64,000 nucleotides of DNA from Myxococcales bacterium (GTDB lineage: Bacteria; Myxococcota; UBA796; SXON01). A program made the position numbers and the translations under genes. Under the pieces are notes generated by a model. That model ran no database searches, was not told the origin of the DNA, and saw only the letters and a program-made list of their open reading frames with translations. Within the stretch, counting starts at the first letter, position 1. Each line of letters opens with the position of its first letter. This document shows, piece after piece, positions 11,116-60,256 of this stretch. The stretch is from NCBI GenBank assembly GCA_009692585.1, contig SHYX01000015.1:32145-96144 (forward strand), read 5' to 3'.

Positions 11116-11133
11116 GCTTGATACGCGGGTAAA

Positions 11134-11586
11134 ATGGCCGTGACCCCGCTCGACATCCTCCAGCACCAGTTCGGCGCGGCGCGGCGCGGCGGCTACGAGC
11201 CGACCGAGGTGCACGCCTTCCTTGACACCGTGCGGGAGGCTCTCGAGGCGAGCCTGAGGGAGAACCTCAAGCTCCGCGAGGCCCTGCTCGAGCGCGACCG
11301 TGAGGTGGCGGGCCTGCGTGGGGAGTCGGGCGAGATCAAAGAAGCGCTGGTCCTCGCACGGCGATTGGCGGTGGACATGGACAACCACGCTCGTCGCGAG
11401 GCGGACATCATCGTCGGGGAGGCACGCCTGGAAGCCGAGCAGATCCTCGCCGCAACCCGGGACGAGGAGCGGCTGTTGCAAGAGCACCTCATGCGCCTGC
11501 GCACCTCGCGCACCCACCACCTCTCCCAGATGCGTGCGTTCATCCATGCACAGGGCCGCATTCTCGACGAGCTGGACCGTGAGTAG
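11134..11586 (+). CDS. DivIVA-domain coiled-coil protein
   Basis: 150 aa. The N-terminus (MAVTPLDILQHQFGAARRGG and YEPTEVHAFLDTVRE) matches the DivIVA membrane-binding start. A long coiled coil to the end follows (about residues 30-150). DivIVA proteins mark cell poles or septa and recruit division or polar-growth factors. The partner is unknown here. The following PHP gene starts inside its last codons, suggesting cotranslation. Confidence 0.85.
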   Translation: MAVTPLDILQHQFGAARRGGYEPTEVHAFLDTVREALEASLRENLKLREALLERDREVAGLRGESGEIKEALVLARRLAVDMDNHARREADIIVGEARLEAEQILAATRDEERLLQEHLMRLRTSRTHHLSQMRAFIHAQGRILDELDRE

Positions 11587-17824: not shown

Positions 17825-18577
17825 TTACCGCCACCGGAGTGCTTCCACCCGTTGGGTGGTCGCGAAGATGAAGAACAGGATCACCGAGATGAAGTACACC
17901 GCGTCATTGAGGTGGAGCACCCCGCGGCTCATCGTCTCGAAGTGGGACAACATCGAGATGTGGGTGACGATCGTGGAGAGCGAGCCCTCCTTGAGGATGC
18001 CACCGAGCCAGCCCACGATCCACATCGAGAGGCTCAAGGAGAACGAAGACGCGAGCGCCACGAGCTGGTTGTCAGTCATCGACGAGGCGAACAGCCCCAC
18101 GGCGACAAAGACCCCCATCAAGACGGTGAAGCCGGCGTAGCAGGAGAGCATCACGCCCCAGTCCGGGTCGCCCATCCAGTACAACATCCCCGGAACGTAC
18201 GCGGTCGTCGCGATCATCAACATCACAAAACCGAAGGCGCCGAAGTATTTTCCCAGCGCGATCTGTAGCGAGCTGATGGGCGAGGTGAGGAGCAGCTCGA
18301 CGCTGCGCTCGCGCCGATCCTGCGCGATCGAGCCCATCGTGACGGCCGGGACGAGCAGCAGCCCGATGACCGTGAGGTTGCCGAAGAAGCCCTGCACCAT
18401 CTGCTCGGTGACGCCGTCTTCCATTCCAAGCTGCATGGCCTGGCTGGCGTAGCCCCAGAGCGTGAGATTGAAGAAAAGCGCGGCGATCAGCGTGAAGACC
18501 ACCAGGCATATCCACCCGATCGGTCCGGTGAGGTAGCCGCCAAGCTCTCGTTTTGCGATGAAGAGGATCGGTTTCAT
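17825..18577 (-). CDS. GldF-type ABC-2 permease
   Basis: 250 aa with about six transmembrane helices, starting MKPILFIAKRELGGYLTGPI. The segment SIAQDRRERSVELLLTSPIS is the conserved loop of ABC-2 export permeases. It overlaps the ATPase gene by 4 bases and is followed at 2 bases by the GldG-type gene, so the three form one operon. Confidence 0.88.
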   Translation of the reverse strand: MKPILFIAKRELGGYLTGPIGWICLVVFTLIAALFFNLTLWGYASQAMQLGMEDGVTEQMVQGFFGNLTVIGLLLVPAVTMGSIAQDRRERSVELLLTSPISSLQIALGKYFGAFGFVMLMIATTAYVPGMLYWMGDPDWGVMLSCYAGFTVLMGVFVAVGLFASSMTDNQLVALASSFSLSLSMWIVGWLGGILKEGSLSTIVTHISMLSHFETMSRGVLHLNDAVYFISVILFFIFATTQRVEALRWR

Positions 18578-19470
18578 GCCTTGGCCTCAGCGCTCATGAG
18601 GCGCAGGTACACTTCCTCGAGGTGTTCTTTCCCGTCGAGCGCCAGGAGTCCGAAGGGTACGGCAGCGGCCGCGACTTCGGCCCGGACGTCGCGAGCGGTG
18701 CGCAAGGTGAACACTGGCCCGGCCTGCTCGACCGCCACGACGCCGTCGACGGCCGCCAAGGCGGCCTGAGCGCCGTCGGGGCGTGCCAGTTCGATGCGCA
18801 CCATCCGGGTGGTGCCGGCGATGGTCCCCAGGTCGTCCTGCGCGAGAATCCGTCCCTTGCCGATGAAGATCACCCGGTTGCAGATCGCCTCGATCTCCCC
18901 GAGCACGTGCGTGGACAGGATGATCGTGCGATCGCCCGCGGCGAGGGTCCGGATGAGCTCGCGGATCTCGACGCGTTGGGCCGGATCGAGGCCGGAGGTG
19001 GGCTCGTCGAGCACCAGGACCTTGGGGTCGTGGACGAGGGCCTGGGCGAGGCCGACGCGTTGCCGGTAGCCCTTGGACAGATGGTCGATGAGGCGGTGAG
19101 CCACATCGGTCAGCCCGACCCGGGAGAGCGCGAGGTCCGTAGCCGCGGTGGTGTCCGGAACGCGCTTGAGCGCGGCGGCATAGCTGACGTAGGAGCGCAC
19201 GGACATGTTGGTGTAGAGCGGCGGCACCTCCGGGCTGTACCCGAGCATCGCCTGGACGGTGCGTGGATCCTCCGCGACATCGACGCCATCGACCTTCGCG
19301 GTGCCCGACGACGCCCCCAGGGAGCCGGCGATGACGCGCATCGTGGTGCTCTTGCCGGCGCCGTTGGGTCCGAGGAAACCAACGACCTCGCCCTTTTTGA
19401 CCACGAACGACACGTCGTCGATGGCGGTGTTGGCGCCGTAGCGCTTCGTAAGGCCTTGTACCTCGATCAT
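18574..19470 (-). CDS. ABC transporter ATPase, GldA-type
   Basis: 298 aa from the ATG at 19470. Walker A GPNGAGKSTTMR (about residues 37-48), signature LSKGYRQRVGLAQAL, Walker B VLVLDEPTSGLD and the H-loop STHVLGE are all present. The C-terminal domain of about 80 residues is as in drug- and gliding-type ATPases. It is the first gene of the leftward triad and is divergent from the MopE-repeat gene across 139 bases. Confidence 0.92.
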   Translation of the reverse strand: MIEVQGLTKRYGANTAIDDVSFVVKKGEVVGFLGPNGAGKSTTMRVIAGSLGASSGTAKVDGVDVAEDPRTVQAMLGYSPEVPPLYTNMSVRSYVSYAAALKRVPDTTAATDLALSRVGLTDVAHRLIDHLSKGYRQRVGLAQALVHDPKVLVLDEPTSGLDPAQRVEIRELIRTLAAGDRTIILSTHVLGEIEAICNRVIFIGKGRILAQDDLGTIAGTTRMVRIELARPDGAQAALAAVDGVVAVEQAGPVFTLRTARDVRAEVAAAAVPFGLLALDGKEHLEEVYLRLMSAEAKA

Positions 19471-19562
19471 GCTGTAGCCATGCCCGGTTCGGAGGGGGCG
19501 GGCCCTAACCAGCCAGCGCGGGTGCGTCGACCTTGCCGCCCGTCGCCGACGGTGATTCACAT

Positions 19563-19609: not shown

Positions 19610-22600
19610 ATGCGTCACGTCGCCACCACTCTCCTCGTCTTGCTCGTCTCGGGCTGCGGGTCCACGTGGACCGGCGTCGACGGCGACGGCGATGGCTTCA
19701 CCCTCGCCCAGGGGGACTGTGATGACGGCCCGGATGGCGGAGGCGTCGGCCCCGAGGCAACCGAGGTCTGGTACGACGGGGTGGATCAGGATTGCGACGG
19801 CAATGACGCCGACCAGGATCTGGACGGGGAGCCCGCGCTCTTGGCGGGGGGCCTGGACTGTTGGGACGATCCCACGAGCATCCCCGCCGAATTCTCCGCG
19901 CTCAACGGGCTGGTCCAGCCCGAGGCCGGGGACGTGCTCCCGGGTGCGCCGGAGGTGTACTATGACGGGGTCGACCAGGACTGCGACGGCGCGGACGACT
20001 TCGACCAGGACGGGGACGGCTTCGCCTCCACCGCGTGGGTAGAGACGCGCACCGAGCTGCCGGTCGAGGATTGCTATGACGCGGTGACGCAGGTGTACCC
20101 GGAACTCTGGCCCGACTGCGTGGTCGAAGCCAATCGGGTGGTCGAGACCCCGTTGTCTCCGGCCGCGGTATTCCCGGACGCGTCGGACACCTGGTACGAC
20201 GGAACCGATGCCAACTGCGACGGGGACGATGACTTCGACAAGGACGGCGACACCTTTGCCGTGTGCGCGGAGTGTGACGACGACGACCCGACGGTGTTTC
20301 CCAACGACGCGGTGGAGCTCTGGTACAACCACCTCGACGAAAATTGCGACGGCAACGACGCCGATCAGGATGGCGACGGGTACGTGGTGGCCGGCTACGT
20401 CGAGGCCGACCCCGGGAATCCGATCCACGTCGAGGGCGCGTATGGCGTCGACGACTGCTGGGATGATCCGGCCGACATCCCGCGCGGCTACGACGCCATC
20501 AACGGCATGGCCCAGCCGAGCGCGGCCGCGGTTCATCCCGACGCCATCGAGACCTGGTACGACGGGGTCGACGAAGACTGCGCCAGTGACGACGACTTCG
20601 ATCAGGATGGCGACGGCGACCCCGCCGAGACCGAACCCAATCGGAGCGGCTTGTTCGGCTCGGACTGCAACGACCTCGACGGGACGATCTACAGCGACGC
20701 GCCGGAGACGTGGTACGACGGCACCGACTCCGACTGCGACGGCGGGTCGGACTACGATCAGGACGCCGATGGGTACGACTCGGCGGCCTACAGCTACGGC
20801 ACGAGCGACGACTGTGACGACACCAAGTCCGAGGTGCACCCGTCGACGGCCGGTGACTTCGTCAACGAGGACTGCGCCACCACCTACGATGATGACTGCG
20901 ACGGCGACACCAACGATGACGACGCCGAGTCCTGTGTCGAACACTACGACGACGCCGACGTCGACGGCTACGGCGACGTCACCGATTCCCGCTGTCTGTG
21001 CACCGACGACGGCACCTACACCACCACCGGCGTCACCACGAGCAACGACGATTGCGACGACACCCGCGCCGCGGTGAACCCGGCCGTCACCATTGAGAAT
21101 TGCGGCACCAGCTACGATGACGACTGCGACGCGGTCACCAACGAGCAGAACGGCACGTCCTGCACCACCTACTACCTGGACGCCGACGGCGACAGCTACG
21201 GCACGACCACCTCGCAGTGTTGGTGTTCCGGGTACGGCACCTACGACGCCAGCAACGACGACGATTGCGACGACACGCGCGCCGCGGTGAGCCCGGCGGT
21301 GACCAACGAGAACTGCTCCACTAGCTACGACGACGACTGCGACGGAGTCACCAACGAGCAGAACGGCTCGTCGTGCACCACCTACTATTACGACGGTGAC
21401 AACGACGCCTTCGGCAACGCCAGCCTCTCCCAGTGCTGGTGCTCCACCTCTGGCAGTTACGACGTGACCAACGACGACGACTGCGACGACGCCGATGCCA
21501 CGACCTTCCCGGGTGTGGCCGAAGAAGACAGCACCACGGCGTGCATGAGCGACGCGGACGGCGACGGGTTCGGCGACACGACGGCCCCATCCGGCGGCAC
21601 CGCTGGGACCGACTGCGACGACGCCCGGTCCGGCGTCAACCCCGATGGCACCGAAACCTGTGGCACCGCGTACGACGACGACTGCGACAGCTCCACCAAC
21701 GACACCGGTGCGGTGGGGTGCACCACCTACTACTACGACGGGGACAACGACACCTACGGTAAATCCACGCTGTCGCAGTGCACCTGCACGACCTCGGGCA
21801 GCTACGACGTCACCAACAGCACCGACTGCGACGACAGCGACGCCGACACCTTCCCCGGCGCCGCCAGCGTCGAATCGGTCACCTCGTGCCGCAACGACGA
21901 CGACAACGACGGGTACGGCGACACCACCGTGACCAGCGGGGTCACTGCCGGCACCGACTGCGACGACACCCGTAGCGCGGTGAACACCGCCGCGACCGAG
22001 ACCTGCTCCACCACCTACGACGACGACTGCGACAGCTCCACCAACGACGTCGGCGCCACGGGGTGCACGACCTACTACTACGACGGCGACAACGACGGCT
22101 ACGCCATCACCACGTCGTCACAGTGCACCTGCACGAGCAGCGGCAATTACGACATCACCGGCACCACCTCTGCCAACGACGACTGCGACGACACCGACGA
22201 CGAGATCAGCCCTGGCGATCCGGAGCTGTGCACGACCACGGCCGACGATGACTGCGATGGCGGCACCAACGACGTCGGCGCCACCGGGTGCACCACCTAC
22301 TTCTACGACGGCGATGCCGATGGGTACGGCATCACGACGTCGTCGCAGTGCACCTGCACGAGCTCCGGGCTCTACACGGTCGCCGGGGTGACCAGCGCCA
22401 ACGACGACTGCGACGACACCCTGGCGGCCGTGAGCCCCGGCGACGCCGAGGTGTGCGCGACCACCTACGACGACGACTGCGACGGGTCCAGCAACGAAGT
22501 CGACGCCTCCGACTGCACCACCTACTACTACGACGCCGACTCCGACGGCTATGGGCTCCTCACCACGTCCCAGTGCGCCTGCGCCAGCAGCGGCAGCTAC

Positions 22601-23839
22601 ACCGTCACGGGCACCACGTCCGCCAACGACGACTGCGACGACACCCGCGCCACGGTGAGCCCCGCCGATCTGGAGGTCTGTTCCACCACCTACGACGACG
22701 ACTGTGACGGCTCCAGCAACGAGGTGGGCGCCTCGGACTGCACCACCTACTACTACGACGGCGACAGTGACGGCTACGGCCTGCTCACCACCACTCAGTG
22801 CGCGTGCGGCAGCAGCGGCAGCTACACGGTGACCGGCGTCACCGCCGCCAACGACGATTGCGATGACACCCGTGCGGCGGTGAGCCCCGCCGATCCCGAG
22901 GTCTGCTCCACGACCTACGACGACGACTGCGACGGCTCCAGCAACGAGGCCGGCGCCGCGGATTGCACGACCTACTACTACGATGGCGACAACGACACCT
23001 ACGGCGATGCCAACCTGTCCACGTGCACCTGCGCCACCACCGGCAGCTACGACACTACGGACGCCACCGATTGTGACGACGCGGTGGCGACCACCTACCC
23101 AGGAGCAGCCGACACCTTCGCGACCAACGACGGGGTGGACAACGACTGCGACGAGTTCATCGACGAAACGGGGGTCGCCTACGGCGACATCGTGATCACC
23201 GAGTTCTTCGGCGGCAACCTGACCGCGACCTATGACTGGGTCGAGATCTACAACAACTCGGGGGACACGATCTCTCTGGCCAACTGGACCATGGATCTCT
23301 GTCACGACGCGGACTCCGGTGTGGCGGCGCCCTACGTTTCCGGCGACTGCAGCTCCTGGGTGACGGTGACCTTCCCCAGCTCGGCGACGGTCGCGGACGA
23401 CAGCTACTACGTGGTCTGCGACATTCTCACCAGCTTCACGACCGCCACCGACTGCGACCTGGTCCTGACCAGCTACGATTCGCCCGCCTACACCACGTCC
23501 ACCGACCTGGAAAACATGGTTGGCGGGGTCGAGGTCGCGCTCGACGGAACGCTCATCGACAGCGTCTTCTGGTGGCAGGACAATGGGAACGACGACTGGC
23601 CGGCGGACGGCAGCACGACCGTCACCTCGCAGCTCACCTCGATCCAACTCGACCTCGACACCATCACCGCCGTCACTCCCGATCCGGCCGACGCCAACGA
23701 TGACTACTCGACCTCCACGAGCAATCCCTACCTCGACGATGTGTGGTGCACCTCCGAGGACGCGCTCGTCAGCAACGATTGGGCGAGCCTGTACACCATC
23801 GTGGGCACCCCGGGCGCGGTCAACGTGGACTGTCCGTAA
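19610..23839 (+). CDS. Giant MopE-repeat lipoprotein with C-terminal lamin-tail-like domain
   Basis: 1409 aa. MRHVATTLLVLLVSGC is a lipoprotein signal (lipobox VSGC). Residues about 20-390 hold irregular MopE-type units built on WYDGVDQDCDGN-like motifs. Residues about 440-1165 hold nine Cys-rich repeats (CTTYYYDGDNDGYG, SQCTCTSSGNY, NDDCDDT), 70-115 residues apart and exactly 75 residues apart in the last four. The end (about 1190-1405; GDIVITEFFGG, DWVEIYNNSGDTISLANW) resembles a lamin-tail domain. Asp, Asn and Cys dominate, implying a calcium- or copper-binding, disulfide-stabilised surface protein. MopE of Methylococcus, which shares the motif type, binds copper. The ligand here is unknown. 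Confidence 0.85.
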   Translation: MRHVATTLLVLLVSGCGSTWTGVDGDGDGFTLAQGDCDDGPDGGGVGPEATEVWYDGVDQDCDGNDADQDLDGEPALLAGGLDCWDDPTSIPAEFSALNGLVQPEAGDVLPGAPEVYYDGVDQDCDGADDFDQDGDGFASTAWVETRTELPVEDCYDAVTQVYPELWPDCVVEANRVVETPLSPAAVFPDASDTWYDGTDANCDGDDDFDKDGDTFAVCAECDDDDPTVFPNDAVELWYNHLDENCDGNDADQDGDGYVVAGYVEADPGNPIHVEGAYGVDDCWDDPADIPRGYDAINGMAQPSAAAVHPDAIETWYDGVDEDCASDDDFDQDGDGDPAETEPNRSGLFGSDCNDLDGTIYSDAPETWYDGTDSDCDGGSDYDQDADGYDSAAYSYGTSDDCDDTKSEVHPSTAGDFVNEDCATTYDDDCDGDTNDDDAESCVEHYDDADVDGYGDVTDSRCLCTDDGTYTTTGVTTSNDDCDDTRAAVNPAVTIENCGTSYDDDCDAVTNEQNGTSCTTYYLDADGDSYGTTTSQCWCSGYGTYDASNDDDCDDTRAAVSPAVTNENCSTSYDDDCDGVTNEQNGSSCTTYYYDGDNDAFGNASLSQCWCSTSGSYDVTNDDDCDDADATTFPGVAEEDSTTACMSDADGDGFGDTTAPSGGTAGTDCDDARSGVNPDGTETCGTAYDDDCDSSTNDTGAVGCTTYYYDGDNDTYGKSTLSQCTCTTSGSYDVTNSTDCDDSDADTFPGAASVESVTSCRNDDDNDGYGDTTVTSGVTAGTDCDDTRSAVNTAATETCSTTYDDDCDSSTNDVGATGCTTYYYDGDNDGYAITTSSQCTCTSSGNYDITGTTSANDDCDDTDDEISPGDPELCTTTADDDCDGGTNDVGATGCTTYFYDGDADGYGITTSSQCTCTSSGLYTVAGVTSANDDCDDTLAAVSPGDAEVCATTYDDDCDGSSNEVDASDCTTYYYDADSDGYGLLTTSQCACASSGSYTVTGTTSANDDCDDTRATVSPADLEVCSTTYDDDCDGSSNEVGASDCTTYYYDGDSDGYGLLTTTQCACGSSGSYTVTGVTAANDDCDDTRAAVSPADPEVCSTTYDDDCDGSSNEAGAADCTTYYYDGDNDTYGDANLSTCTCATTGSYDTTDATDCDDAVATTYPGAADTFATNDGVDNDCDEFIDETGVAYGDIVITEFFGGNLTATYDWVEIYNNSGDTISLANWTMDLCHDADSGVAAPYVSGDCSSWVTVTFPSSATVADDSYYVVCDILTSFTTATDCDLVLTSYDSPAYTTSTDLENMVGGVEVALDGTLIDSVFWWQDNGNDDWPADGSTTVTSQLTSIQLDLDTITAVTPDPADANDDYSTSTSNPYLDDVWCTSEDALVSNDWASLYTIVGTPGAVNVDCP
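20920..23090 (+). repeat. Nine tandem Cys/Asp-rich coding repeats
   Basis: The TGCACCACCTAC-like unit start recurs at about 21161, 21374, 21719, 22063, 22288, 22513, 22738 and 22963; a more diverged first copy lies near 20935. The last four starts are exactly 225 bases apart and highly similar, indicating recent duplication. The unit carries about six Cys codons. Confidence 0.85.
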
Positions 23840-23851
23840 TAGCAGGTGGGG

Positions 23852-26470
23852 ATGCGGCTGCTCTTGTCACTCCTGCTGGTCGGTTGCGGCTCCTCATGGC
23901 TCACCCAGGATCTCGATGGTGACGGGTGGTCCGCGGCCGAGGGCGATTGTTTCGACAACCCCGACCAGGACGCCAACGGCATCGCGGCGGCGGACATCCA
24001 CCCCGGCGGCTCCAACGAGACCTGGTACGACGGCGTGGACCAGAACTGCGATGGTGCCGACGACTACGACAAGGACGCCGACGGGCACGCCGCCGCCGAG
24101 TTCCTCGACGGAGACGATTGTTGGGACGACCCGGCGGCGGCGCCGACGGCGTTTCTGGCGCTGAGCGGCTTCTACCAGCCCCTGGCGCGCGAAGTTCACC
24201 CGGGCGCCGCGGAGACCTGGTACGACGGCGTCGACGAGAACTGTGATGCCCGCTCCGATTTCGATCAGGATGGCGACGCGGTCGACACGATGTGGCATGT
24301 GCAGGGCGGCGGTGGGGTGGGCGACGACTGCTTCGACGGCGAGGCAGATCCGTTCGACAACCCGGCGCTGGCCGCTCCGCAGAACGTGAACCCCGACGCG
24401 GTGGAGACCTGGTACGACGGCACGGACGCCAACTGTGACGGCGCGGACGACTACGACCAGGACGCGGACGGGTGGGCGGTCGACGAGGAATGCGACGACC
24501 TGGACCCGGACATCTACCCGAACGATGCCGCCGAGACCTGGTACGACGGGGTCGACAGCAACTGCGATGGCCACAGCGACTACGACCAGGACGAGGACGG
24601 GTACGACTCGGCCGCCTACGCCGGCGATGACTGCAATGACGACCCGGCCACCCCTGGCTCGGGGCGGGATGGCCAGAGCGTCGACGCCGCGGACATGCAC
24701 CCAGGCGCACGGGACGGGGCGTACGACGAAATCGACGCCGATTGTGCCGGGGACAGCGACTTCGACGCCGATGGCGACGGGCAGGACGCCGCGGACGTGG
24801 CCGACGAAGCTGGGCTCTTCGGCTCCGATTGCGATGACGATGACGGCACGGTCTACGCCGGCGCCGCCGAGGTCTGGTACGACGCGGTCGACGCCGACTG
24901 CTCGGGCGGCAGCGACTTCGATCAGGATGGCGACGGTTTTGACTCCGCCGCCTACGGGTACGGCAGCTCGGACGACTGCGACGACGCCAGCTCCGCGGTG
25001 CACCCGAGCACCGACGACGATCCTGCGGCCGAGGACTGCGCGACCGTGGCCGACGATGATTGCACCGGCACCGACAACGACCAGGATGCCGTCGGCTGCG
25101 TGGAGTATTTCCGCGACGGCGATGCCGACAGCTACGGCAAGCTCACCGATTCCGCCTGCTTCTGCGAGGAGTCGGGCGCCTACGCCGTGACCGGTGTCAC
25201 CGCTGCCAACGCCGACTGCAACGACGCCAGATTCACGGTGAATCCGGGTGTCGCGCTCGAGGACTGCGACACGGCCGACGACGATGATTGCGACGGCGAC
25301 ACCAACGAGCTCGGCGGCGACAACTGCGAGGATTGGTACGGTGACGCGGATGTGGACGGGTACGGCGTCGGTACCGCGGCGTGTTATTGCTCCGCGACCG
25401 CCGCCTTCTCCTCCTCACGGGACGACGACTGCGACGACGCGGACAGCACGGTCCATCCCGGCGGGGCGGAGACCTGCGATCTGCAGGACGAAGACTGCGA
25501 CGGCAGCGTCGACGAGGGCGTCACCCACTACTATGCCGACACCGACGGCGACCTGTACGGGGACGACACCACGGAGACGTGCGCCTCAGGCGGTGGTCGC
25601 GTCGCGACCGGTGGCGACTGTGATGACGGCGACGAGCGTGTCTACCCCGGTGCACCAGAGCTGTGTGACGAGCAGCAGAACGATTGTGATGCCGCGAGCT
25701 GGAGCCCGACGGACGAGGACGGCACCGTGTCCTACACCACGACGGCCGGCCTGTGGACGAGCGTCACCTCCGCCTGGGCCGCGGGTACGAGCTCGTCGAT
25801 CGCCTCGATCTCCTTGGCGTCGAGCGGGACCTATCAGGTGTGCCCGGGAATCTGGTACGTGGCGCTGGTCGCCGCCGGCGGGGATGACGTGGAGGTGGTC
25901 GGACCGTATGGGGCGGCCGACACCACGCTGGACCGGAACGGGACCTTGGGGCCGCTCTTGTCGGTCACCGACAGCTCGGTTTCGATGCAGGGCCTCACCT
26001 TGACCGGGGGCACCGGTCAGCTCGGTGGTACGTCCCGGTACGGTGGGGCGGCCTTGTCGTACGCGACCACGTCAACGTCAGTCGCGAGCGTGGCGTTGGT
26101 CGACTGCGAAGTCACCGGAAACAGCGCGACCTACGGCGGTGGGCTCGCCGCCTACAACTACGGTGAAATCACCCTGACCGACACCGCGGTGTTCGACAAC
26201 ACCGCGACCAACGGCGGGGGCCTGTTTGTGCAGCGCGGCGCCGTGGTCTCGAGCGGTGGAGGCGTTCACGACAACACGTCGTCGGGCGAAGGTGGCGGCG
26301 CCTACTTCTCGACGAATCAAGGTTCGCTGACGGTCACCGGTGGGGACTGGTCCACCAACAGCCCCGACGATGCGGCCGGGGCCAGCGGCGGGTTCGGGAC
26401 CGAGGCCGATGCGTCCTACGGCAGTTCGGCCGACTTCTCCTGTGCAGGGAACACCGGGTGTACGCCGTAG
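23852..26470 (+). CDS. MopE-repeat lipoprotein with C-terminal beta-helix
   Basis: 872 aa from the ATG at 23852 (MRLLLSLLLVGC, lipobox LVGC), preceded by AGGTGGGG. A paralogue of the previous gene: MopE-type units with TWYDGVDQNCDGA-like motifs fill about residues 20-390, and more Cys-rich YGD-type units run to about 620. Instead of a lamin-tail domain it ends in a right-handed beta-helix-like region (VALVDCEVTGNSATYGGGLA, then AVFDNTATNGGGLFVQ). The start lies 12 bases after the preceding stop and the end overlaps the cytochrome gene. Confidence 0.85.
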   Translation: MRLLLSLLLVGCGSSWLTQDLDGDGWSAAEGDCFDNPDQDANGIAAADIHPGGSNETWYDGVDQNCDGADDYDKDADGHAAAEFLDGDDCWDDPAAAPTAFLALSGFYQPLAREVHPGAAETWYDGVDENCDARSDFDQDGDAVDTMWHVQGGGGVGDDCFDGEADPFDNPALAAPQNVNPDAVETWYDGTDANCDGADDYDQDADGWAVDEECDDLDPDIYPNDAAETWYDGVDSNCDGHSDYDQDEDGYDSAAYAGDDCNDDPATPGSGRDGQSVDAADMHPGARDGAYDEIDADCAGDSDFDADGDGQDAADVADEAGLFGSDCDDDDGTVYAGAAEVWYDAVDADCSGGSDFDQDGDGFDSAAYGYGSSDDCDDASSAVHPSTDDDPAAEDCATVADDDCTGTDNDQDAVGCVEYFRDGDADSYGKLTDSACFCEESGAYAVTGVTAANADCNDARFTVNPGVALEDCDTADDDDCDGDTNELGGDNCEDWYGDADVDGYGVGTAACYCSATAAFSSSRDDDCDDADSTVHPGGAETCDLQDEDCDGSVDEGVTHYYADTDGDLYGDDTTETCASGGGRVATGGDCDDGDERVYPGAPELCDEQQNDCDAASWSPTDEDGTVSYTTTAGLWTSVTSAWAAGTSSSIASISLASSGTYQVCPGIWYVALVAAGGDDVEVVGPYGAADTTLDRNGTLGPLLSVTDSSVSMQGLTLTGGTGQLGGTSRYGGAALSYATTSTSVASVALVDCEVTGNSATYGGGLAAYNYGEITLTDTAVFDNTATNGGGLFVQRGAVVSSGGGVHDNTSSGEGGGAYFSTNQGSLTVTGGDWSTNSPDDAAGASGGFGTEADASYGSSADFSCAGNTGCTP

Positions 26471-28479
26471 CCGTTGTCGTCTTCGGCCTGGGTTGCCAGA
26501 CGGCGGGGACCTCGTCGCCGGTTGCCGGCGTGCCCGCCGCCGCCGACACCGGCCATAGCGGCCTGGCCGTCCCTGTCGAGGTCCGGGTCACCGTCACCCT
26601 CGACGGCGTGCCCATCCAGGGAGCGTCGGTGCTCCAGGCCGGAACCGAGACCCGCTACGAGACCGACGCCAGCGGCGTGGTGGACGTCCCGATCGATGGG
26701 ACCATCGACGGTGATCTGTGGGTGGCCGCCAGCTTCCCGAGCGCGTGGAACGCGGGTGCGGCGGTGAAGGGGGCCTCGTCGGTGACCATCGGGCTCACGA
26801 CGTTCGACCCCGCCGACAATCCCGACTACACCTTCGCTGATCCCGGGATCGACGCCACCGCCGACTCCAACGCCACCCAGTGCAGCCATTGCCATCTGTC
26901 TCTCCACCGGGGATGGGCGGCGAGCCCCCATGCAGCGTCCGCGCGCAATCCCGTGGTCCACGCGGTCTATCAGGGCTTCGATCGGGACGTTCCCGACGTC
27001 GCATCCTGCGAGGCGCGCGGCGGAAGCTGGGAGCCGGCGGTCGAGCCCGGGACCTCGCTGGCGATCGACGCGTGCCACGTCGCGGAGGCGGTGAGCGGCG
27101 CTGGCGGGTGCGCGGACTGCCATGCGCCCGGTATCGGCGGGGCCGACCTCGCTGGACACGAGCTGCTCGAAGCGACCGGACTCGCGTACCAAAACGGCGT
27201 GCATTGCGACGTCTGCCACAAGGTCGAGTCGGTCGATGTCGGCGAGGCCGCGGGTGTCGCGGGTTGGCTCAACGTGCTGCGCCCCAGCGATCCTTCCCCC
27301 TCCCGCCTGCTCGGGCCCTTCCACCCTCTGCAGTTCGGGCCCTACATCGACGTGCTCCACCCCTTGATGGGGGGTGTGCAACGGGAACATCTCCACAGCG
27401 CGGATTTCTGCGGGGGCTGCCACCAGCTCGATCAGGGCGTGCTCGTAGAGGGTGTCGAGCTTGATTGGTTGCGCTGGCCGGACGGCACGTTGCCGGTTCA
27501 GAGCACCTGGGCCGAGTGGGAGGACGGCCCGATGAACCCGGCGGCGCCCTGCCAGAGCTGTCACATGCCCCCGCTCCCGGGCGCGGGCAATTCCGCCGAT
27601 CTCGGCAACGAGTTCGACCTGCTTCCGGGCGTCGCGACCGGCTGGTACCGTGCACCCGGCGCCGTACGGGCCCACTCCTGGGTAGGGCCGCGGCAACCGG
27701 AAAGCGGCATGCTCGAGCTTGCCGCGCTGCTCCAGGTCGAGACCGAGCTGACCGACGGCGAGCTGGTGGCGACGGTCGTCGTACAGAATTCCGGTCCCGG
27801 GCACGCGCTGCCAACCGGTGAATCGCTACGCAATCTTGTCCTTCGTGTGGATGCAGCTTGCGATGGAGCGCCGCTTCGTGCCACGGGCGGAGACGTCGTG
27901 CCGGTCTGGGGTGGAGTCGATGGGGTGCGGACGCTGCCGGCCGAGCTGTTGGTGGTGGTTGGCGCCGCCGCGGGCGACCGGCTCCGGCTGCTGGCAACGG
28001 TGGGTTGGGTGGAGTACCAAGGTTTCGGTGCGTTCGGGGATGGGCGGTTCTCGGCGGCAGAGAAGGGTCTTCCCGACTATGCGTTCGTCGGGGACGCCGA
28101 GGTCCTGGCGGTGGACGCCGAGGGTCGGGTGACGCTCGATCACCCGGAGTGGGTGGCGTCGGCGGACACCGCCTTCTGGGTCCGGGCCGCGGGCGTTTCG
28201 GAGGTGGGTGCCGTCGGCGGCCTGCCGGGCTTCGGGTTCGCCCGGGTTCTCGTCGGGGATGACGGTGAGCGCATGGTGCCGCACCACCTCGCGGTGGACG
28301 TCGAGAGTGACAACCGCCTCTTGCCGACGGATTCGTTCACCACCGAGCACCGCTTCGAGGTCGCGTGTGCGTCCCCCACGGTGACCGCGACGCTTCGTTA
28401 CCGCGCGGTCCCCTGGGGGCAGGCGCAGCGGTACGGCTGGGTGGTCGAGGACCGGGTGATGGCGACGGTGACAAGATGA
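26458..28479 (+). CDS. Pentaheme c-type cytochrome lipoprotein
   Basis: 673 aa from a GTG that overlaps the preceding gene by 13 bases. MYAVAVVVFGLGC is a short lipoprotein-like signal. An Ig/Cna-like domain (about residues 40-110) precedes five CxxCH heme motifs: CSHCH (142), CADCH (218), CDVCH (250), CGGCH (318) and CQSCH (365). A beta-rich C-terminal domain of about 250 residues follows. The arrangement resembles multiheme cytochromes of the c554/NrfB-like superfamily. Electron transfer at the outer membrane or periplasm is likely. The multicopper oxidase start overlaps its stop by ATGA, so the two may work together. Confidence 0.88.
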   Translation: MYAVAVVVFGLGCQTAGTSSPVAGVPAAADTGHSGLAVPVEVRVTVTLDGVPIQGASVLQAGTETRYETDASGVVDVPIDGTIDGDLWVAASFPSAWNAGAAVKGASSVTIGLTTFDPADNPDYTFADPGIDATADSNATQCSHCHLSLHRGWAASPHAASARNPVVHAVYQGFDRDVPDVASCEARGGSWEPAVEPGTSLAIDACHVAEAVSGAGGCADCHAPGIGGADLAGHELLEATGLAYQNGVHCDVCHKVESVDVGEAAGVAGWLNVLRPSDPSPSRLLGPFHPLQFGPYIDVLHPLMGGVQREHLHSADFCGGCHQLDQGVLVEGVELDWLRWPDGTLPVQSTWAEWEDGPMNPAAPCQSCHMPPLPGAGNSADLGNEFDLLPGVATGWYRAPGAVRAHSWVGPRQPESGMLELAALLQVETELTDGELVATVVVQNSGPGHALPTGESLRNLVLRVDAACDGAPLRATGGDVVPVWGGVDGVRTLPAELLVVVGAAAGDRLRLLATVGWVEYQGFGAFGDGRFSAAEKGLPDYAFVGDAEVLAVDAEGRVTLDHPEWVASADTAFWVRAAGVSEVGAVGGLPGFGFARVLVGDDGERMVPHHLAVDVESDNRLLPTDSFTTEHRFEVACASPTVTATLRYRAVPWGQAQRYGWVVEDRVMATVTR

Positions 28480-29837
28480 TCCTGGCCCTCCTCGGCTGTG
28501 TGGAGCCGGACGTCGCTGACGACGCCCACCCCTTCCTGGCGGACACGGCCGCCGAACCGGGAGATCAGGGTCCGACGGTGCTGCCCTTCCCTGTGGACGC
28601 GAAGGACCTCGATGAGGCGGAGGGGCGCGTTCGGTTCGCCCTTGCCGCGCAGCTCACGACGCATGACGTCGGCGGGGTGACGATCGCGGGGTACGGCTAC
28701 GACGGGCTGACGCCGGGTCCGGTGCTGCGCGCCCGGGTGGGCGACGAGGTGACGGTCGAGTTGCACAACGCGCTGGCGGCGGCGACCACCCTCCACTGGC
28801 ACGGGATGCACGTGCCAAACGCGATGGATGGGGTGGAGCGCGTCCAGGCACCCATCCTGCCGGGTGCGAAGTTCACCTACCGCTACACCGCGACGAGCTC
28901 CGGCACGTTCTGGATCCACCCTCACGTCGACACCGACCGGCAGGTCGACCTCGGTTTGTACGCCGTCGTCGTGGTGACAGCGCCGGCCGAGCCCGTGTCC
29001 GCTCACGACGTGGTGCTGGTCTTCGATGCCTGGGCAGAAGTCGAATCGGGCCTGGGAGCCGTCGACGATCACACGCCTCCCGACCCGGGGACACAGGTGT
29101 GGACCGTCAACGGGGCGGTGAGCCCGGTCTGGACTCTGGAGCCGGCCGCGACCGCGCGAGTACGCCTGCTCAACGCCTCGAACACCAGCTTTCTATCGCT
29201 GAACTGGCCGGGCGCCCGACTGCTCGCCACCGACCAGGGGCTGGCGGCGGCTCCCGGGCTCGTCGACGGGCTGGTGTTGGCGCCCGGGGATCGTGCGGAG
29301 GTCGAGGTCCTTGCCGGACAAGGGACGGTCCCGGTGACCACGTCGATGTGGTCGGCGGCCGGAGGCGCCAGCTACGGCGATCCCCGGACCCTCTTGACGG
29401 TCGTGGGTGGCGACGGCGAGCCCGGCCAACCGCTCGCCTTCTCGTTCTCCGGGGCCGCGCCGTCGACGGATCCCGGGCGCACGGATGTGCTCTACACTTT
29501 TGCGGGCGGGGCGCCCGGCGAGGACTGGCTCATCAACGGCGAGGCCTGGCCTGACGTGACCGCGACCCACGTCGCGCTCGATGCGGACGTGATCATCGAG
29601 GTGCGTAACCTCAGCGCTACCAGCCACCCCTTCCACCTGCACGGCCATCGCTTCGAGGTCCTGTCGGTCGACGGTGTGTCCCCGGCAAGCCAGCGCCACG
29701 AAGACACCATCGACGTGCCCATCCGCGCCGCGGTCCGCCTTCGGCTGATGGCGGACAACCCGGGGGCATGGCTGGTGCACTGCCACCTGCTTGGCCACGA
29801 GGAGGGGGGGATGATGACCGAGTTGGTCGTGGAGTAG
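28476..29837 (+). CDS. Three-domain multicopper oxidase, lipoprotein-type
   Basis: 453 aa from the ATG at 28476 (MILALLGC; the Cys at residue 8 would be lipidated). All copper motifs are intact: HWHG (residue 107), HPH (148), HPFHLHGH (384-391) and HCHLLGHEEGGM (435-446), the last with the Cys, His and axial Met of type-1 copper. Laccase-like enzymes couple oxidation of phenols, Cu(I), Fe(II) or Mn(II) to O2 reduction. The substrate is unknown; no Met-rich CueO-type insert is evident. The cytochrome gene directly upstream makes an electron-transfer partnership plausible. Confidence 0.92.
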   Translation: MILALLGCVEPDVADDAHPFLADTAAEPGDQGPTVLPFPVDAKDLDEAEGRVRFALAAQLTTHDVGGVTIAGYGYDGLTPGPVLRARVGDEVTVELHNALAAATTLHWHGMHVPNAMDGVERVQAPILPGAKFTYRYTATSSGTFWIHPHVDTDRQVDLGLYAVVVVTAPAEPVSAHDVVLVFDAWAEVESGLGAVDDHTPPDPGTQVWTVNGAVSPVWTLEPAATARVRLLNASNTSFLSLNWPGARLLATDQGLAAAPGLVDGLVLAPGDRAEVEVLAGQGTVPVTTSMWSAAGGASYGDPRTLLTVVGGDGEPGQPLAFSFSGAAPSTDPGRTDVLYTFAGGAPGEDWLINGEAWPDVTATHVALDADVIIEVRNLSATSHPFHLHGHRFEVLSVDGVSPASQRHEDTIDVPIRAAVRLRLMADNPGAWLVHCHLLGHEEGGMMTELVVE

Positions 29838-29869: not shown

Positions 29870-30724
29870 TCAGCGCGGCCCTTCCATCAGATAGGCGGCG
29901 ATCTCCACGCCGAAGTTCATCGGCCAATGACCGAGGAACGCCGGGAGGAAGCTGCGACAGCGCAGGCAGACCACCGCCAACAGCGCGCTGCCCACGAAGG
30001 AGGAGAGCATCTCGATCTCGGGCTTGCCCCGGTGCAGCAGAAAGTAGCCGAGGCTGACATACAGGATCGCGGCGCGTTTGCCGTGGGTTCTGGCGATCGC
30101 GAACAGTCCGACGCCGTGCCAGAAGAACTCCTCCCCGAACAGGCAGACCCCGCGCAGGAGTTGGACGGCCAGGAGTTGCCCGAAGTCGGCGCGCGCGGCC
30201 ACGTCCTGCGGGTAGTACGCGCGGAGGCTGGGCAGCAGCGCCACCGCAAGGAATGAGGCGGGTACGATGATCGCGGCGGCGATGGCCACCTTGGGTCCCC
30301 ACCAGCGCCAGTCGCCCAGGCCGATTCCGTAGTCGTCGGCGCGCACGTCGGACGCCATCCAGGCGGCCACCGAGACCACCGCGGCGAGCACCAACGGCGG
30401 GAAGAAACGAGCCGGGTCGTCCTCCGCCCAGCTCTTGCCCTCGCCGGCCAACTTCGCCGCCCACCACGGGGCGGCGACCAGCACCGACACCAGGATGGCG
30501 GCGCCCGCGAGCGCGCCACGCCGCCGCGTGGCCCCCCAGGCTGCGAGGAACGCCAGCGGAATGAACAGGTAGATGGCGTCGTATCCCGCCGCCAACATCC
30601 GGCCGGTGCGGGGCAGGAGCTTCCAATCGCAGAAGCAGCACCACGCCATCATCGTTGCCGGGAGCCAGCCGGCGAGCAGGGCGCCGGGGTCGAATTCGGC
30701 GACAAACGCACGCAGGCGAGACAT
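29870..30724 (-). CDS. CPBP-family (CAAX-like) intramembrane protein
   Basis: 284 aa with about eight transmembrane helices. The motif GEEFFWHGV (about residues 196-204) matches the EExxxR motif of CPBP proteases except that the Arg is His. FLLHRGKPE and LGHWPMNF follow in the positions of the later motifs, keeping a His in each. An intact glutamic intramembrane protease is likely but not certain. It converges on the multicopper oxidase gene with 32 bases between. Confidence 0.75.
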   Translation of the reverse strand: MSRLRAFVAEFDPGALLAGWLPATMMAWCCFCDWKLLPRTGRMLAAGYDAIYLFIPLAFLAAWGATRRRGALAGAAILVSVLVAAPWWAAKLAGEGKSWAEDDPARFFPPLVLAAVVSVAAWMASDVRADDYGIGLGDWRWWGPKVAIAAAIIVPASFLAVALLPSLRAYYPQDVAARADFGQLLAVQLLRGVCLFGEEFFWHGVGLFAIARTHGKRAAILYVSLGYFLLHRGKPEIEMLSSFVGSALLAVVCLRCRSFLPAFLGHWPMNFGVEIAAYLMEGPR

Positions 30725-35665: not shown

Positions 35666-36607
35666 CTACACCTGCACCTTGACGATTTTCCGGATCAGCA
35701 GCCCCCCGATCACCTGGAGGGTCAGCATCACAAAGATGAAGGCCCAGCCCAGAGCCGTGGTCCAAAGCCGAGCGATCAGCACCGGGTCGATGACCCAGAG
35801 CGCGCCGGCGAGCACGAAGGGCATGAACACGATGATCACGCCCTGGGAAACGCCCTGCGCGGTCAAGGATTTGACCTTTCCCGCCACTTTCTTGCGTTCG
35901 CGGATGGTGTTGGCCACGGTGTCGAAGGTCTCGGCTAGGTTCCCGCCCGACTGCCGGAGGATGTTGATGCTGGTGACGATGATCTGCACGTCTTCGGTGC
36001 CGATGCGCTTTTCGAGGCCGATCAGCGCGTCCTCGAGCGGCACGCCAAGGCGCTGCTGGTTCAGCGTGAGCGCGAACTCCTGGCTGATGGGGTTCGGCAG
36101 CTCCTCGCGCACCATGTCCATGCTCTGGAGCAACGAAAGTCCGGACTTCAATCCGTTCGACATGAACGCGAGGGCGTCCAGGAGCTGATCCTCGAAGAGG
36201 TCGATGCGCCGTTGCCACATCCACTCGACCACCGACCGGGGCAGGCGATAGCCGGTCGGGAGGCCGAAGGGGCCCGCAACGAGCACGCTCACCACCAGGG
36301 CACGAATCACATGATAACCTGGGTGATCCCAGGGTAATCCGCTGGTGAGGAACAGTCCGAGCGCGCCGAAGACCAGCACGCTGGTCACGATGCTCAACAG
36401 GCACAGTGGCACAGAAATCTCAAGGAACATTCTGTCGAACTCGGCTTGCATCCACCGGACGTAGCCGTGGGTCATGTCGTCGAAGATGGCCCACGCGGTC
36501 GGCGCGGAAAAGTAGCCGACCCCAGCCCAGGCCACGAGCGACACCCCGAGGGCGGCGAGACGGCCCAGGGTGAGTCCATCCCAGAACTGAGGAAGCAGCT
36601 CGAACAT
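35666..36607 (-). CDS. Tad pilus inner-membrane platform protein (TadB/TadC-type)
   Basis: 313 aa from the ATG at 36607, which overlaps the fusion ATPase stop by one base. The GspF-type domain (EDQLLDALAFMSNGLKSGLS, about residues 130-245) lies between N-terminal helices and two C-terminal transmembrane helices. Tad systems usually have two such proteins, TadB and TadC. Only this one is here, so the other is elsewhere or dispensable. It is the last gene of the operon. Confidence 0.85.
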   Translation of the reverse strand: MFELLPQFWDGLTLGRLAALGVSLVAWAGVGYFSAPTAWAIFDDMTHGYVRWMQAEFDRMFLEISVPLCLLSIVTSVLVFGALGLFLTSGLPWDHPGYHVIRALVVSVLVAGPFGLPTGYRLPRSVVEWMWQRRIDLFEDQLLDALAFMSNGLKSGLSLLQSMDMVREELPNPISQEFALTLNQQRLGVPLEDALIGLEKRIGTEDVQIIVTSINILRQSGGNLAETFDTVANTIRERKKVAGKVKSLTAQGVSQGVIIVFMPFVLAGALWVIDPVLIARLWTTALGWAFIFVMLTLQVIGGLLIRKIVKVQV

Positions 36608-38805
36608 CAGGCTCGGCCGCGCGGCGTGGTCGCCTGTCCGGGCGCGGCGAAGATGCCCCGAGGAACCTCGATGCCGAGCTCGCCCAGCTTGGACACGAAC
36701 TTCGGCACGAAGCCGGTGGGTCCGAAGCTCCCGATCACCTTCCGCTGGGCGTCGACGCCGGTCTGCTTGAAGGCGAAGCACTCCTGCATGGTGATGGTCT
36801 GCGCTTCCATCCCGGAGATCTCGCATACGGAGAGGATCCGTCGGCTGCCGTCGCTGAGTCGCGACACCTGCACGATGATGTTGATCGCGCTCGCGATCTG
36901 CTCACGGATGGCGCGTGACGGAAGATCGAGACCGGCAAACATCACCAACGTTTCCAGACGTGCCAACGCGTCGCGCGGGGTGTTGGCGTGGACCGTGGTG
37001 AGGGAGCCATCGTGACCGGTGTTCATTGCCTGGAGCATGTCCACGGCTTCGGCGCCACGACATTCCCCGACCACGATGCGATCCGGTCGCATTCGCAAGG
37101 AGTTCTTCACCAAGTCGCGGATCTTGACCTCGCCGACGCCCTCGATGTTTGCTGGTCGCGACTCAAGGCGTACGACGTGCGGCTGCCGGAGCTGGAGCTC
37201 GGCGGCGTCCTCGATGGTGACGATACGGTCATCCTCTGGGATGAAACTGGAGAGTACGTTGAGAAGTGTGGTCTTTCCGGAGCCCGTGCCTCCGGAGATC
37301 ACGATGTTGAGCCTGGCCTGCACGCATGCACGCAGCAGGTCGGCCAGATCGTGGGTGAGGCTGCCGAAGCGGACCAGGTCGTCCACCTTGAGCGGTTCGC
37401 GCGCGAACTTTCGGATGGTGATGCTGGGACCGTCGATCGCCAGCGGCGGAATGATGGCGTTGACGCGGCTTCCGTCGGCCAGGCGGGCGTCCACCATCGG
37501 CGACTTCTCGTCGATGCGGCGCCCCAGCGGGGTCACGATGCGCTCGATCACCGCCATCAGCTGAGCGTCGTCGGTGAAGGTGTACTCGGTCTTCCGGAGC
37601 TTCCCGTTGATTTCCGCGAACACGTTGTCGCGACCGTTGACCATGATCTCGGTGACGCGCTCGTCGGCGAGCAGATCTTCGAGCGCGCCGAGCCCCAGGG
37701 CCTCGTCGCAGACCTCCTTCACGATGCGGCGTCGTTCGTTGCGGTCGGTGACGCTGGCCCCCTCTTCATCGAGCACCTTGGCCACGGCGGCCTCGGCGCG
37801 CTCGCGCAGCAACTTGTCCCGGTCGGGCCGCCCCCCCACCTCGCGATCCAGCCGCTTGAGATCCAGGACGTCCGGCAGGCGCTTGTGGATGAGCATCTTG
37901 AGGCGCGTGCGGTTGTCCATCTCCTTGGCCGAGCGGCCGGACTTGCCGCCACCACGGGCCTTGAGGAACCCCTCGATGGCCTTGTCCTGCTCCTGCGTCA
38001 CCTCGACGCCACGATGTTGGTCCACCGTCTGACCGCGTCCGCGTTCGACGGCCGCCAATTGGTCCAGGATGCCCTTCTCGACGAGCTGACGGACCAGTTC
38101 GTCGTAGGTGCGCGACAGGGCGGCGCGGGGCGCGTCCATCACGAACGGTGCGGCCTTGAGCGCGGCGTCCAGCGTGAGGGCGTCGTCTTTGGGCAGGACC
38201 ACCAGCGCCGCGCGCCCCAGGCGCACGGCGACGGCCTCTCGCGGGAGGGGGCCCGCGGCGTCGTGGGCGTTGACCACGAACTTTATCAGCGCTTGGGGGA
38301 AGTGGAGGGTCTGCAGGTGCTCGGCGAACTGGCGCGTCGCCGCCAACGACGTGGGGCTCGCCGTCGCGACCAGGAAGATGCCCGAGGCCCGCTCCATCGC
38401 CACGATGTTCGCCGGGTCCACGCCGGCGCCGGCGTCGATGACGACGTAGTCGCAGAGCGGACCCGCGAGGTCGAGCACCTTGCGGATGCCCTCTGGCGGT
38501 ACTTTCCGGGCCGCTTGCGGGTTCGCCGCCAGGGGCAGCACGCCTACCCCCGTGCCGTGGGCTTGGATGTACGGCCCGAAGCTCGCTGGCGTCAGCTGGT
38601 CCACGTAGGGCAGGAACTCCGCGATCGTGCGCGCGTCGGGGATGCCCAGGAGCGCCGCCACATCGCCGACGCCGCTGACGTCGAGGTCGACGATCATCAC
38701 GCGGGTGCGGGTCTCCTTCAGCAGGGACAGCGCAATATTCACGGCAAAGCTTGTTTTTCCAACGCCGTCGCGCGCGCCGCCGACGACGACGAAACGGCAG
38801 GCCAT
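36607..38805 (-). CDS. CpaE-CpaF (TadZ-TadA) fusion ATPase
   Basis: 732 aa. Residues about 1-260 form a MinD/CpaE-like domain: variant Walker A GGARDGVGKTS, then IVDLDVSGVGD and DYVVIDAGAGVDP. Residues about 295-720 form a complete CpaF secretion ATPase: Walker A GGTGSGKTTLLN (about 505), IVTIEDAAELQL, GECRGAEAVDMLQAMNTGHD and TTVHANTPRDAL. The polar-localising protein and the pilus motor are normally separate genes. It lies 1 base from the secretin stop and overlaps the platform gene. Confidence 0.93.
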   Translation of the reverse strand: MACRFVVVGGARDGVGKTSFAVNIALSLLKETRTRVMIVDLDVSGVGDVAALLGIPDARTIAEFLPYVDQLTPASFGPYIQAHGTGVGVLPLAANPQAARKVPPEGIRKVLDLAGPLCDYVVIDAGAGVDPANIVAMERASGIFLVATASPTSLAATRQFAEHLQTLHFPQALIKFVVNAHDAAGPLPREAVAVRLGRAALVVLPKDDALTLDAALKAAPFVMDAPRAALSRTYDELVRQLVEKGILDQLAAVERGRGQTVDQHRGVEVTQEQDKAIEGFLKARGGGKSGRSAKEMDNRTRLKMLIHKRLPDVLDLKRLDREVGGRPDRDKLLRERAEAAVAKVLDEEGASVTDRNERRRIVKEVCDEALGLGALEDLLADERVTEIMVNGRDNVFAEINGKLRKTEYTFTDDAQLMAVIERIVTPLGRRIDEKSPMVDARLADGSRVNAIIPPLAIDGPSITIRKFAREPLKVDDLVRFGSLTHDLADLLRACVQARLNIVISGGTGSGKTTLLNVLSSFIPEDDRIVTIEDAAELQLRQPHVVRLESRPANIEGVGEVKIRDLVKNSLRMRPDRIVVGECRGAEAVDMLQAMNTGHDGSLTTVHANTPRDALARLETLVMFAGLDLPSRAIREQIASAINIIVQVSRLSDGSRRILSVCEISGMEAQTITMQECFAFKQTGVDAQRKVIGSFGPTGFVPKFVSKLGELGIEVPRGIFAAPGQATTPRGRA

Positions 38806-38806
38806 C

Positions 38807-41079: not shown

Positions 41080-41091
41080 GGCCGCGCGAGT

Positions 41092-41280
41092 CTACCTCAT
41101 GTCGCCGCTGCCGTTGGTCTCCCCCTGCTGGTAAAGTCGACCGAGGTCGTCATCCAGGCCGTCGATTCCCTGTCGGAAGCTGGGGATGAACGCGTATGCA
41201 GCCAGGGCGAGTCCCACGCTGAGGACCGACACCAACAACATCCACTCGACGGTCGACTGGCCACGGCGCATGCGTTCCAT
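41092..41280 (-). CDS. Flp-like prepilin 1 (62 aa)
   Basis: MERMRRGQSTVEWMLLVSVL has the class III leader: a short basic leader, Gly at -1, and Glu at +5 of the hydrophobic segment. Prepilin peptidase would cut after the Gly. The mature part is about 55 residues. Its ATG directly abuts the peptidase stop. It may be the major pilin or a minor pseudopilin. Confidence 0.8.
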   Translation of the reverse strand: MERMRRGQSTVEWMLLVSVLSVGLALAAYAFIPSFRQGIDGLDDDLGRLYQQGETNGSGDMR

Positions 41281-55584: not shown

Positions 55585-55591
55585 CGACGGA

Positions 55592-60225: not shown

Positions 60226-60256
60226 CCTGGCGCCCGCGAGTCGTTATGATCGCCCC

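Follow-up and report, generated by a model that had tools for sequence, protein, structure and literature searches.

A pentahaem cytochrome and a laccase-type multicopper oxidase encoded as a conserved overlapping gene pair in myxobacteria and relatives, with separable MopE-repeat neighbours

Background

The electrons that multicopper oxidases (MCOs) consume come, as a rule, from small molecules or metal ions. Gene clusters in which an MCO is accompanied by a putative c-type cytochrome have been described, namely mofABC of Leptothrix and the ompB (GSU1394)-GSU1397 cluster of Geobacter (PMC5566968). In Myxococcus xanthus, the copper-responsive curA copper-tolerance operon includes CuoA, CorSR, CopA and MXAN_3414 (PMC3707914). 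MopE, a copper-binding surface protein with PF11617-type repeats, is co-transcribed with a c-type haem protein, a di-haem peroxidase (PMC3912023). In this study, we report the analysis of a run of four genes, A to D, in a 64,000-nucleotide stretch of contig SHYX01000015.1 from a Myxococcales bacterium (GCA_009692585.1), referred to below as the window. Genes A and B encode proteins with MopE-type repeats, C a pentahaem c-type cytochrome and D an MCO.

The sequence-only reading of this locus held that no system with such a gene set had been described. That was too broad in view of the MCO-cytochrome clusters and of mopE with its c-type peroxidase, while for the C-D pair itself no account (MCO with multihaem or pentahaem cytochrome, mofA/mofC, Myxococcota) was found in the open-licence PMC literature. 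We propose, with a probability of about 0.5, that in myxobacteria and their relatives C and D make up a dedicated redox unit of two proteins, in which the cytochrome feeds an MCO that reduces O2, and that A and B are a separate module.

Methods

A cytochrome alignment of 24 rows (A1) was searched against the GTDB species genomes, giving 71 loci (L numbers). The gene downstream of the cytochrome could be evaluated in 54 of these; the 17 left out comprised one without a recognised cytochrome open reading frame (ORF), seven with the cytochrome cut by a contig end, and nine with fewer than 1300 bases downstream and no MCO seen. Separately, 140 genomes were sampled evenly from the phylum of the Enhygromyxa genome (G018), and at most 8 cytochrome and 11 MCO candidates per genome were scored, the latter with an MCO alignment (A3). 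A simple caller based on ORFs and GC3 (G+C at third codon positions) picks the wrong strand in places (e.g. L009, L010 and L073), and C and D were therefore located by phmmer or tblastn.

Conservation of the cytochrome-oxidase pair

Gene C (26458..28479, plus strand) encodes a cytochrome of 673 amino acids (aa), and gene D (28476..29837, plus strand) a 453-aa three-domain MCO of the laccase type. The start codon of D overlaps the stop codon of C in an ATGA junction (28476..28479, plus strand), which is conserved and indicates translational coupling. An MCO gene was found directly downstream of the cytochrome gene in 37 of the 54 evaluable loci, and in all 37 the MCO start overlapped the cytochrome stop by four bases in an in-frame NTGA. 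The same junction was present in both further pairs recovered by the genome search (L077 and L078), making 39 of 39 pairs and bearing out the linkage of cytochrome and oxidase proposed earlier. Since this overlap is present in every pair, translation of D most likely begins, judging from the sequence, at ATG 28476 rather than at GTG 28365.

The 71 loci came mostly from metagenome-assembled genomes (MAGs) titled Myxococcota, Myxococcales, Deltaproteobacteria or Proteobacteria, and from one isolate, Enhygromyxa salina SWB007 (L020), which carries the pair. Four (L004, L013, L028 and L053) are titled Klebsiella pneumoniae or Bifidobacterium breve, yet by their cytochromes they belong with Myxococcota or Deltaproteobacteria MAGs and are probably MAGs that were mislabelled.

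Pairwise distances among the C proteins correlate with those among the D proteins (r 0.83 for 36 pairs, a value reached in none of 2000 permutations; r 0.72 for the 30 pairs that exclude the closest clade), a correlation that shared ancestry alone would also yield. Among the 140 sampled genomes, a cytochrome was found at E 1e-40 in 20 and an MCO match at the same threshold in 52, of which 14 held a match of at least 532 bits. All 14 of these MCOs adjoin a cytochrome gene, and every other MCO among the matches listed scores at most 383 bits. Among the scored candidates of the A3 search, the paired subfamily was thus not found apart from the cytochrome in the 140 genomes; A3 was built from paired MCOs and its scores favour them, yet two genomes outside A3 (G086 and G116) also hold the pair. 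The paired MCO was missing from six cytochrome-bearing genomes, in two of which (G021/L023 and G024/L027) the cytochrome lies at a contig end.

The pentahaem cytochrome

Protein C contains exactly five CxxCH motifs (CSHCH, CADCH, CDVCH, CGGCH and CQSCH), in agreement with its first description as a pentahaem protein. Residues 38-120 form a carboxypeptidase-regulatory-like domain and residues 123-673 a pentahaem c552 fold, which is shared with the Thermochromatium tepidum c552 structure 5ze8 over the haem and C-terminal domains (24% identity in the structural alignment). The five proximal haem His residues are invariant in all 47 cytochromes aligned. The fold has been related in the literature to ExtKL and to a cytochrome nanowire (PMC11976967). 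Fusions were considered and rejected, since the long cytochrome ORFs in L044 and L049 gave no second Pfam domain.

The multicopper oxidase

The ligand motifs of the type 1 (T1), type 2 (T2) and type 3 (T3) copper sites (HxHG, HPH, HPxHxHG and HCHxxxHxxxxM) are present in all 38 paired MCOs, that is, the window and 37 relatives, and the 12 copper ligands are invariant in a 36-row alignment. The full set of copper motifs noticed earlier in D is therefore complete. The predicted structure of D (predicted local distance difference test score, pLDDT, 89.6) shows a three-cupredoxin fold along its full length, with the Thermus laccase (2xu9, 6wcn) as best structural match (template-modelling score, TM, 0.78-0.80), and Pfam Cu-oxidase_3 and Cu-oxidase_2 are found above cut-off.

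With its copper sites complete, D might act as a metallo-oxidase or laccase directly on Cu(I) or phenols, as CueO and CuoA do, and C would then only accept or relay electrons, for example when O2 is short. Metal-pump genes near the pair in relatives (see below) would fit such a role, as would the M. xanthus precedent, in which one copper operon encodes CuoA together with CopA and a cytochrome resembling cbb3-III (PMC3707914). In CueO, however, the substrate copper is held by Met355, Asp360, Asp439 and Met441 (PMC6155172), and two of these positions are replaced throughout the paired MCOs: that of Asp439, four residues before the T1 His, is Ser in 38 of 38, and that of Met441, two before the T1 His, is Thr in 27, Ser in 7, Val in 3 and Ala in 1. 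A Met-rich segment is also lacking, each of the 38 having 3-12 Met after residue 40. No NCBIfam model reaches its cut-off with D, the CueO equivalog model scoring 153 bits against a cut-off of 525. Moreover, if C were of low potential like c552, its uptake of electrons from the T1 copper would be uphill. We consider direct oxidation by D rather unlikely, though a serious alternative. The narrower assignment of D as a CueO-type cuprous oxidase was rejected on the replaced residues, which leave D without an evident CueO-type metal site and hence with room for a protein electron donor.

In 17 of the 38 paired MCOs the first Cys lies at position 12 or earlier with no Lys or Arg before it (in the window MILALLGC, 28476-28499), far below the length of a textbook lipoprotein signal. 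These very short N-termini may be an ultra-short signal specific to the lineage, or the true start may have gone unrecognised. The suggestion that all four proteins begin with lipoprotein-type signals needs qualifying for D, which has seven uncharged residues before Cys-8, fewer than such a signal usually has; A has a lipobox-like start and C bears a lipobox.

Metal-pump genes near the pair

Heavy-metal resistance-nodulation-division (RND) genes above the TIGR00914 cut-off occur at about 2.5 per genome (at least 103 in 41 genomes, counted by hand). In the flanks of 41 loci, which were selected from the 71 and include all seven with a cluster-6 RND gene, six were seen (L019, L022, L025, L031, L043 and L046, those of L022 and L046 being matched by coordinates) against 0.24 expected; the expectation becomes 0.35 with 150 genes, and 0.38 to 0.55 over all 70 loci. 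When only loci with a visible MCO were considered, 4 of 36 had an RND gene, with 0.22 expected.

In L019 the order is CusA, a CsoR-type repressor (RicR model 72 bits, cut-off 175), a CopA-type ATPase (TIGR01511, 603 bits against 397), the cytochrome and the contig end. L038 reads CusB-type adaptor, RND, DUF3347 (24.9 bits, cut-off 25.5), cytochrome and MCO; its RND gene, at 663 bits, is under the TIGR00914 cut-off of 701 and was left out of the count. Plastocyanin-like genes lie in the flanks of L016 and L017.

Proposed function of the pair

We propose that the lipobox-bearing pentahaem cytochrome C would make contact with D and pass electrons through its five haems to the T1 copper of D, which would reduce O2 to water outside the inner membrane. 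If a low-potential haem chain feeds a high-potential T1 copper, the electrons would therefore go to O2. The electron donor to C could be Cu(I) or a reduced envelope pool, both candidates in the relatives with a copper operon. Where the pair sits among metal-export genes, it would most likely help to keep envelope copper as the less toxic Cu(II). Passage of electrons from cytochrome to oxidase, already suggested by the sequence-only reading, is the most natural interpretation of a coupled pair; the part given there to the MopE repeats, capture of a metal for the system, found no support (see below). A broader formulation, held tentatively, is that of a haem-fed MCO, an envelope O2 reductase for which a cytochrome of the c552 fold is the dedicated donor of a laccase-type MCO, so that electrons could exit to O2 without a haem-copper or bd oxidase.

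Several observations weigh against the proposal. The cytochrome stands without an MCO in 17 of the 54 evaluable loci, and must therefore have at least one other use. What the c552 of T. tepidum does is itself unclear, a part in sulfur metabolism being one suggestion (PMC11976967). As for haem ligation, the candidate distal residues are four non-proximal His invariant in all 47 cytochromes and another two that 45 and 44 of them have. Metal-pump neighbours were seen in six relatives, of which L019 and L022 lie on contigs that end before an MCO could be visible and L031 and L046 are sister lineages, and TIGR00914 spans CzcA as well as CusA types. What we take to be a CusA-like motif in transmembrane segment 4 was seen, by eye, in L019, L022 and L025 only. 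In the window, no copper-efflux gene, nor any other gene of the sort met beside the pair in these relatives, was found among the 26 ORFs scanned with Pfam, about half of those called.

The MCO-less loci also bear on the view that C and D are co-translated for economy and exchange no electrons, each being an independent envelope redox or stress protein. Four-base overlaps are common in bacterial operons, which together with the 17 unpaired cytochromes would suit independence, but this is made quite improbable by a junction that all 39 pairs have retained through deep divergence and by an MCO subfamily that was not met apart from the cytochrome in the 140 genomes.

Eight of the 17 MCO-less loci fall in one deep clade, in which three other rows could not be evaluated, and nine are scattered; a single gain or loss of the MCO was rejected, as nine changes were counted on the tree. 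Some of these cytochromes are second copies: G116 has one with (L078) and one without an MCO (L079), and G005 likewise (L005 with, L011 without). In L024 an FtrD-like gene (PF10080; 2065-2751), not an MCO, overlaps the cytochrome by 4 bp (GTGA), and the gene after it, also small, starts in a lipobox-like manner. Recurrent neighbours in the MCO-less clade include, in L054, L058 and L063, a major facilitator superfamily (MFS) gene (by Pfam for L054 only) and one that looks GntR-like by eye, a GMC oxidoreductase cluster in L054, L058 and L062, and, directly upstream of the cytochrome, a c-type cytochrome-like gene (by Pfam, weakly, in L068 only) in L051, L056, L062, L068 and L070.

The MopE-repeat genes

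Gene A (19610..23839, plus strand) encodes a 1409-aa protein with a lipobox-like start, 11 PF11617 stretches and a C-terminal lamin-tail domain, and gene B (23846..26470, plus strand; start GTG 23846 or ATG 23852) an 874-aa protein with six such stretches and a Gly-rich C-terminal region. Their description as among the largest metal-binding-repeat proteins does not set them apart in this clade: at least 150 scored PF11617 matches per genome were found in 12 of 15 genomes, the Enhygromyxa genome having only 9, and unscored first-look candidates numbered 432 to 978 in the eight relatives with all four genes.

The repeats are acidic and Asp-rich, A having 7 His and 5 Met in 1409 aa and B 10 His and 4 Met in 874 aa. 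Protein B aligns with residues 1-45 only of MopE* (2vov), an Asp-rich repeat, and a sequence search of the PDB with A gave no relative at E 0.01. In MopE, Kyn130, His132 and His203 form the Cu(I) site, and the Asp-rich N-terminal stretch was considered as perhaps contributing to a weaker Cu(II) site (PMC3423442). The earlier statement that MopE motifs bind copper was therefore inaccurate as put, the Cu(I) site lying outside the repeat that aligns with B, although the same paper allows for that weaker Cu(II) site. From their Asp pattern, the repeats of A and B probably bind Ca2+. Caution is called for in reading PF11617 repeats, a hugely expanded family in the clade of the window, as copper-binding.

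It had been suggested that all four proteins form one surface complex, in which the MopE repeats capture a metal such as copper and deliver the metal, or electrons, to C and D. A co-occurrence search, the check proposed with it, gave a divided answer. Of 13 genomes searched for B, 10 hold a full-length orthologue (59-86% identical) and G007 a partial one, and C-D follows B in eight of the ten (G001-G004, G006, G009, G010 and G038). These eight relatives, like the window, have the genes in the order A-like, B, C, D, and B either overlaps C or abuts it, so that co-transcription is likely in this clade; one subclade, G009, G010 and G038 (L009, L010 and L048), has a further MopE-repeat gene of about 1060 aa after the A-like gene and before B. 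A MopE-like ORF ends at the cytochrome start in 10 of the 29 pairs with at least 1.5 kb of upstream DNA, i.e. the eight quartets, L012 and L028. In contrast, no such ORF is present in the other 19, A and B occur together in G011 (L073) with no C or D up to the contig end 6.8 kb on, B stands apart from C-D in G005 (L072), and the partial B of G007 (L074) is also separate. In L075 and L076, A-like genes adjoin and diverge from the ABC gene that also bounds the run in the window (see below). A and B are therefore not bound to C-D, and the four genes as an ancient unit were rejected on this separability. Given also repeats poor in His and Met, the single complex appears distinctly unlikely. Under the two-protein reading, A and B would be an Asp-rich surface module that, in this clade, came to make up the 5' half of the run; it may scaffold or display the pair and would not be needed for C-D.

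Boundaries and surroundings of the gene run

The four ORFs, their order, plus strand and motifs were as first reported, the genes overlapping or nearly touching: A and B are separated by 6 bp, B and C overlap by 13 bp and C and D by 4 bp. The run is bounded upstream by a divergent ABC-transporter ATPase gene (18574..19560, minus strand; likely true start about 19470), which also flanks A in L002, L004, L006, L075 and L076, and downstream by a convergent CAAX-protease-family gene (29870..30724, minus strand), found beside the unit in L001, L002, L006, L009, L010 and L048 as well. A consensus scan for promoters and terminators gave nothing above the shuffled level. Elsewhere in the window lie Flp/Tad pilus-type genes (36607-41808; ParA-like and T2SSE ATPase in a single ORF, secretin, RcpC/CpaB and prepilin peptidase), genes for a ZnuA-type zinc-binding protein and an ABC-3 permease (54748-56473), and a gene for a DUF1552 (HXXSHH) protein, with an ORF that contains one CxxCH ahead of it (59636-63237).

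Comparison with known systems

The MCO subfamily was met only alongside a multihaem cytochrome of its own, and one and the same start-stop overlap links the two genes across deep divergence. The pair constitutes a defined two-gene system, and allows one to ask whether multihaem wires feed copper oxidases and what purpose the pentahaem c552 fold serves.

With MopE/SACCP of Methylococcus capsulatus and CorA/CorB of Methylomicrobium album the locus shares PF11617 repeats and a c-type haem partner gene. The partner there is a di-haem peroxidase, whereas here it is a pentahaem cytochrome, and the account of those systems in PMC3912023 mentions no MCO in the parts that describe them. The four-gene unit has no di-haem peroxidase, C having five CxxCH and the flanks being the ABC and CAAX-protease genes, and neither A nor B has a sequence match to the part of MopE that holds the Cu(I) site. 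In L078, a CCP_MauG di-haem peroxidase gene (9962-11188, minus strand) lies directly upstream of the paired cytochrome, with a gene for a TSP3-repeat/AhpC-like protein further upstream, an arrangement that recalls the mopE-SACCP pairing.

Among known cytochromes, C comes closest to the T. tepidum c552 and the PHC/ExtKL pentahaem family, with five CxxCH motifs and, in the comparison with 5ze8, the c552 fold; C adds the N-terminal carboxypeptidase-regulatory-like domain, the lipobox-like start and an MCO partner to which it is coupled. With CueO and the Thermus laccase D shares three cupredoxin domains and complete T1, T2 and T3 sites, and it differs from CueO in lacking a Met-rich segment and in the replacement of Asp439 and Met441.

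The curA operon likewise places an MCO with a c-type cytochrome in a myxobacterium and has a copper ATPase in addition; its cytochrome, MXAN_3414, is annotated as of the cbb3 subunit III type and not as a pentahaem c552, and the two genes (3420 for the MCO and 3414) are not adjacent (PMC3707914). In the mofA-mofC and ompB operons or clusters, as in C-D, an MCO gene is accompanied by one for a putative c-type cytochrome. By the description in PMC5566968, they are set apart by their other partners (the MofB isomerase and SCO1/SenC), and OmpB is an outer-membrane protein with a fibronectin domain and Fe(III)-binding motifs, whereas D is a compact 453-aa oxidase of the laccase type.

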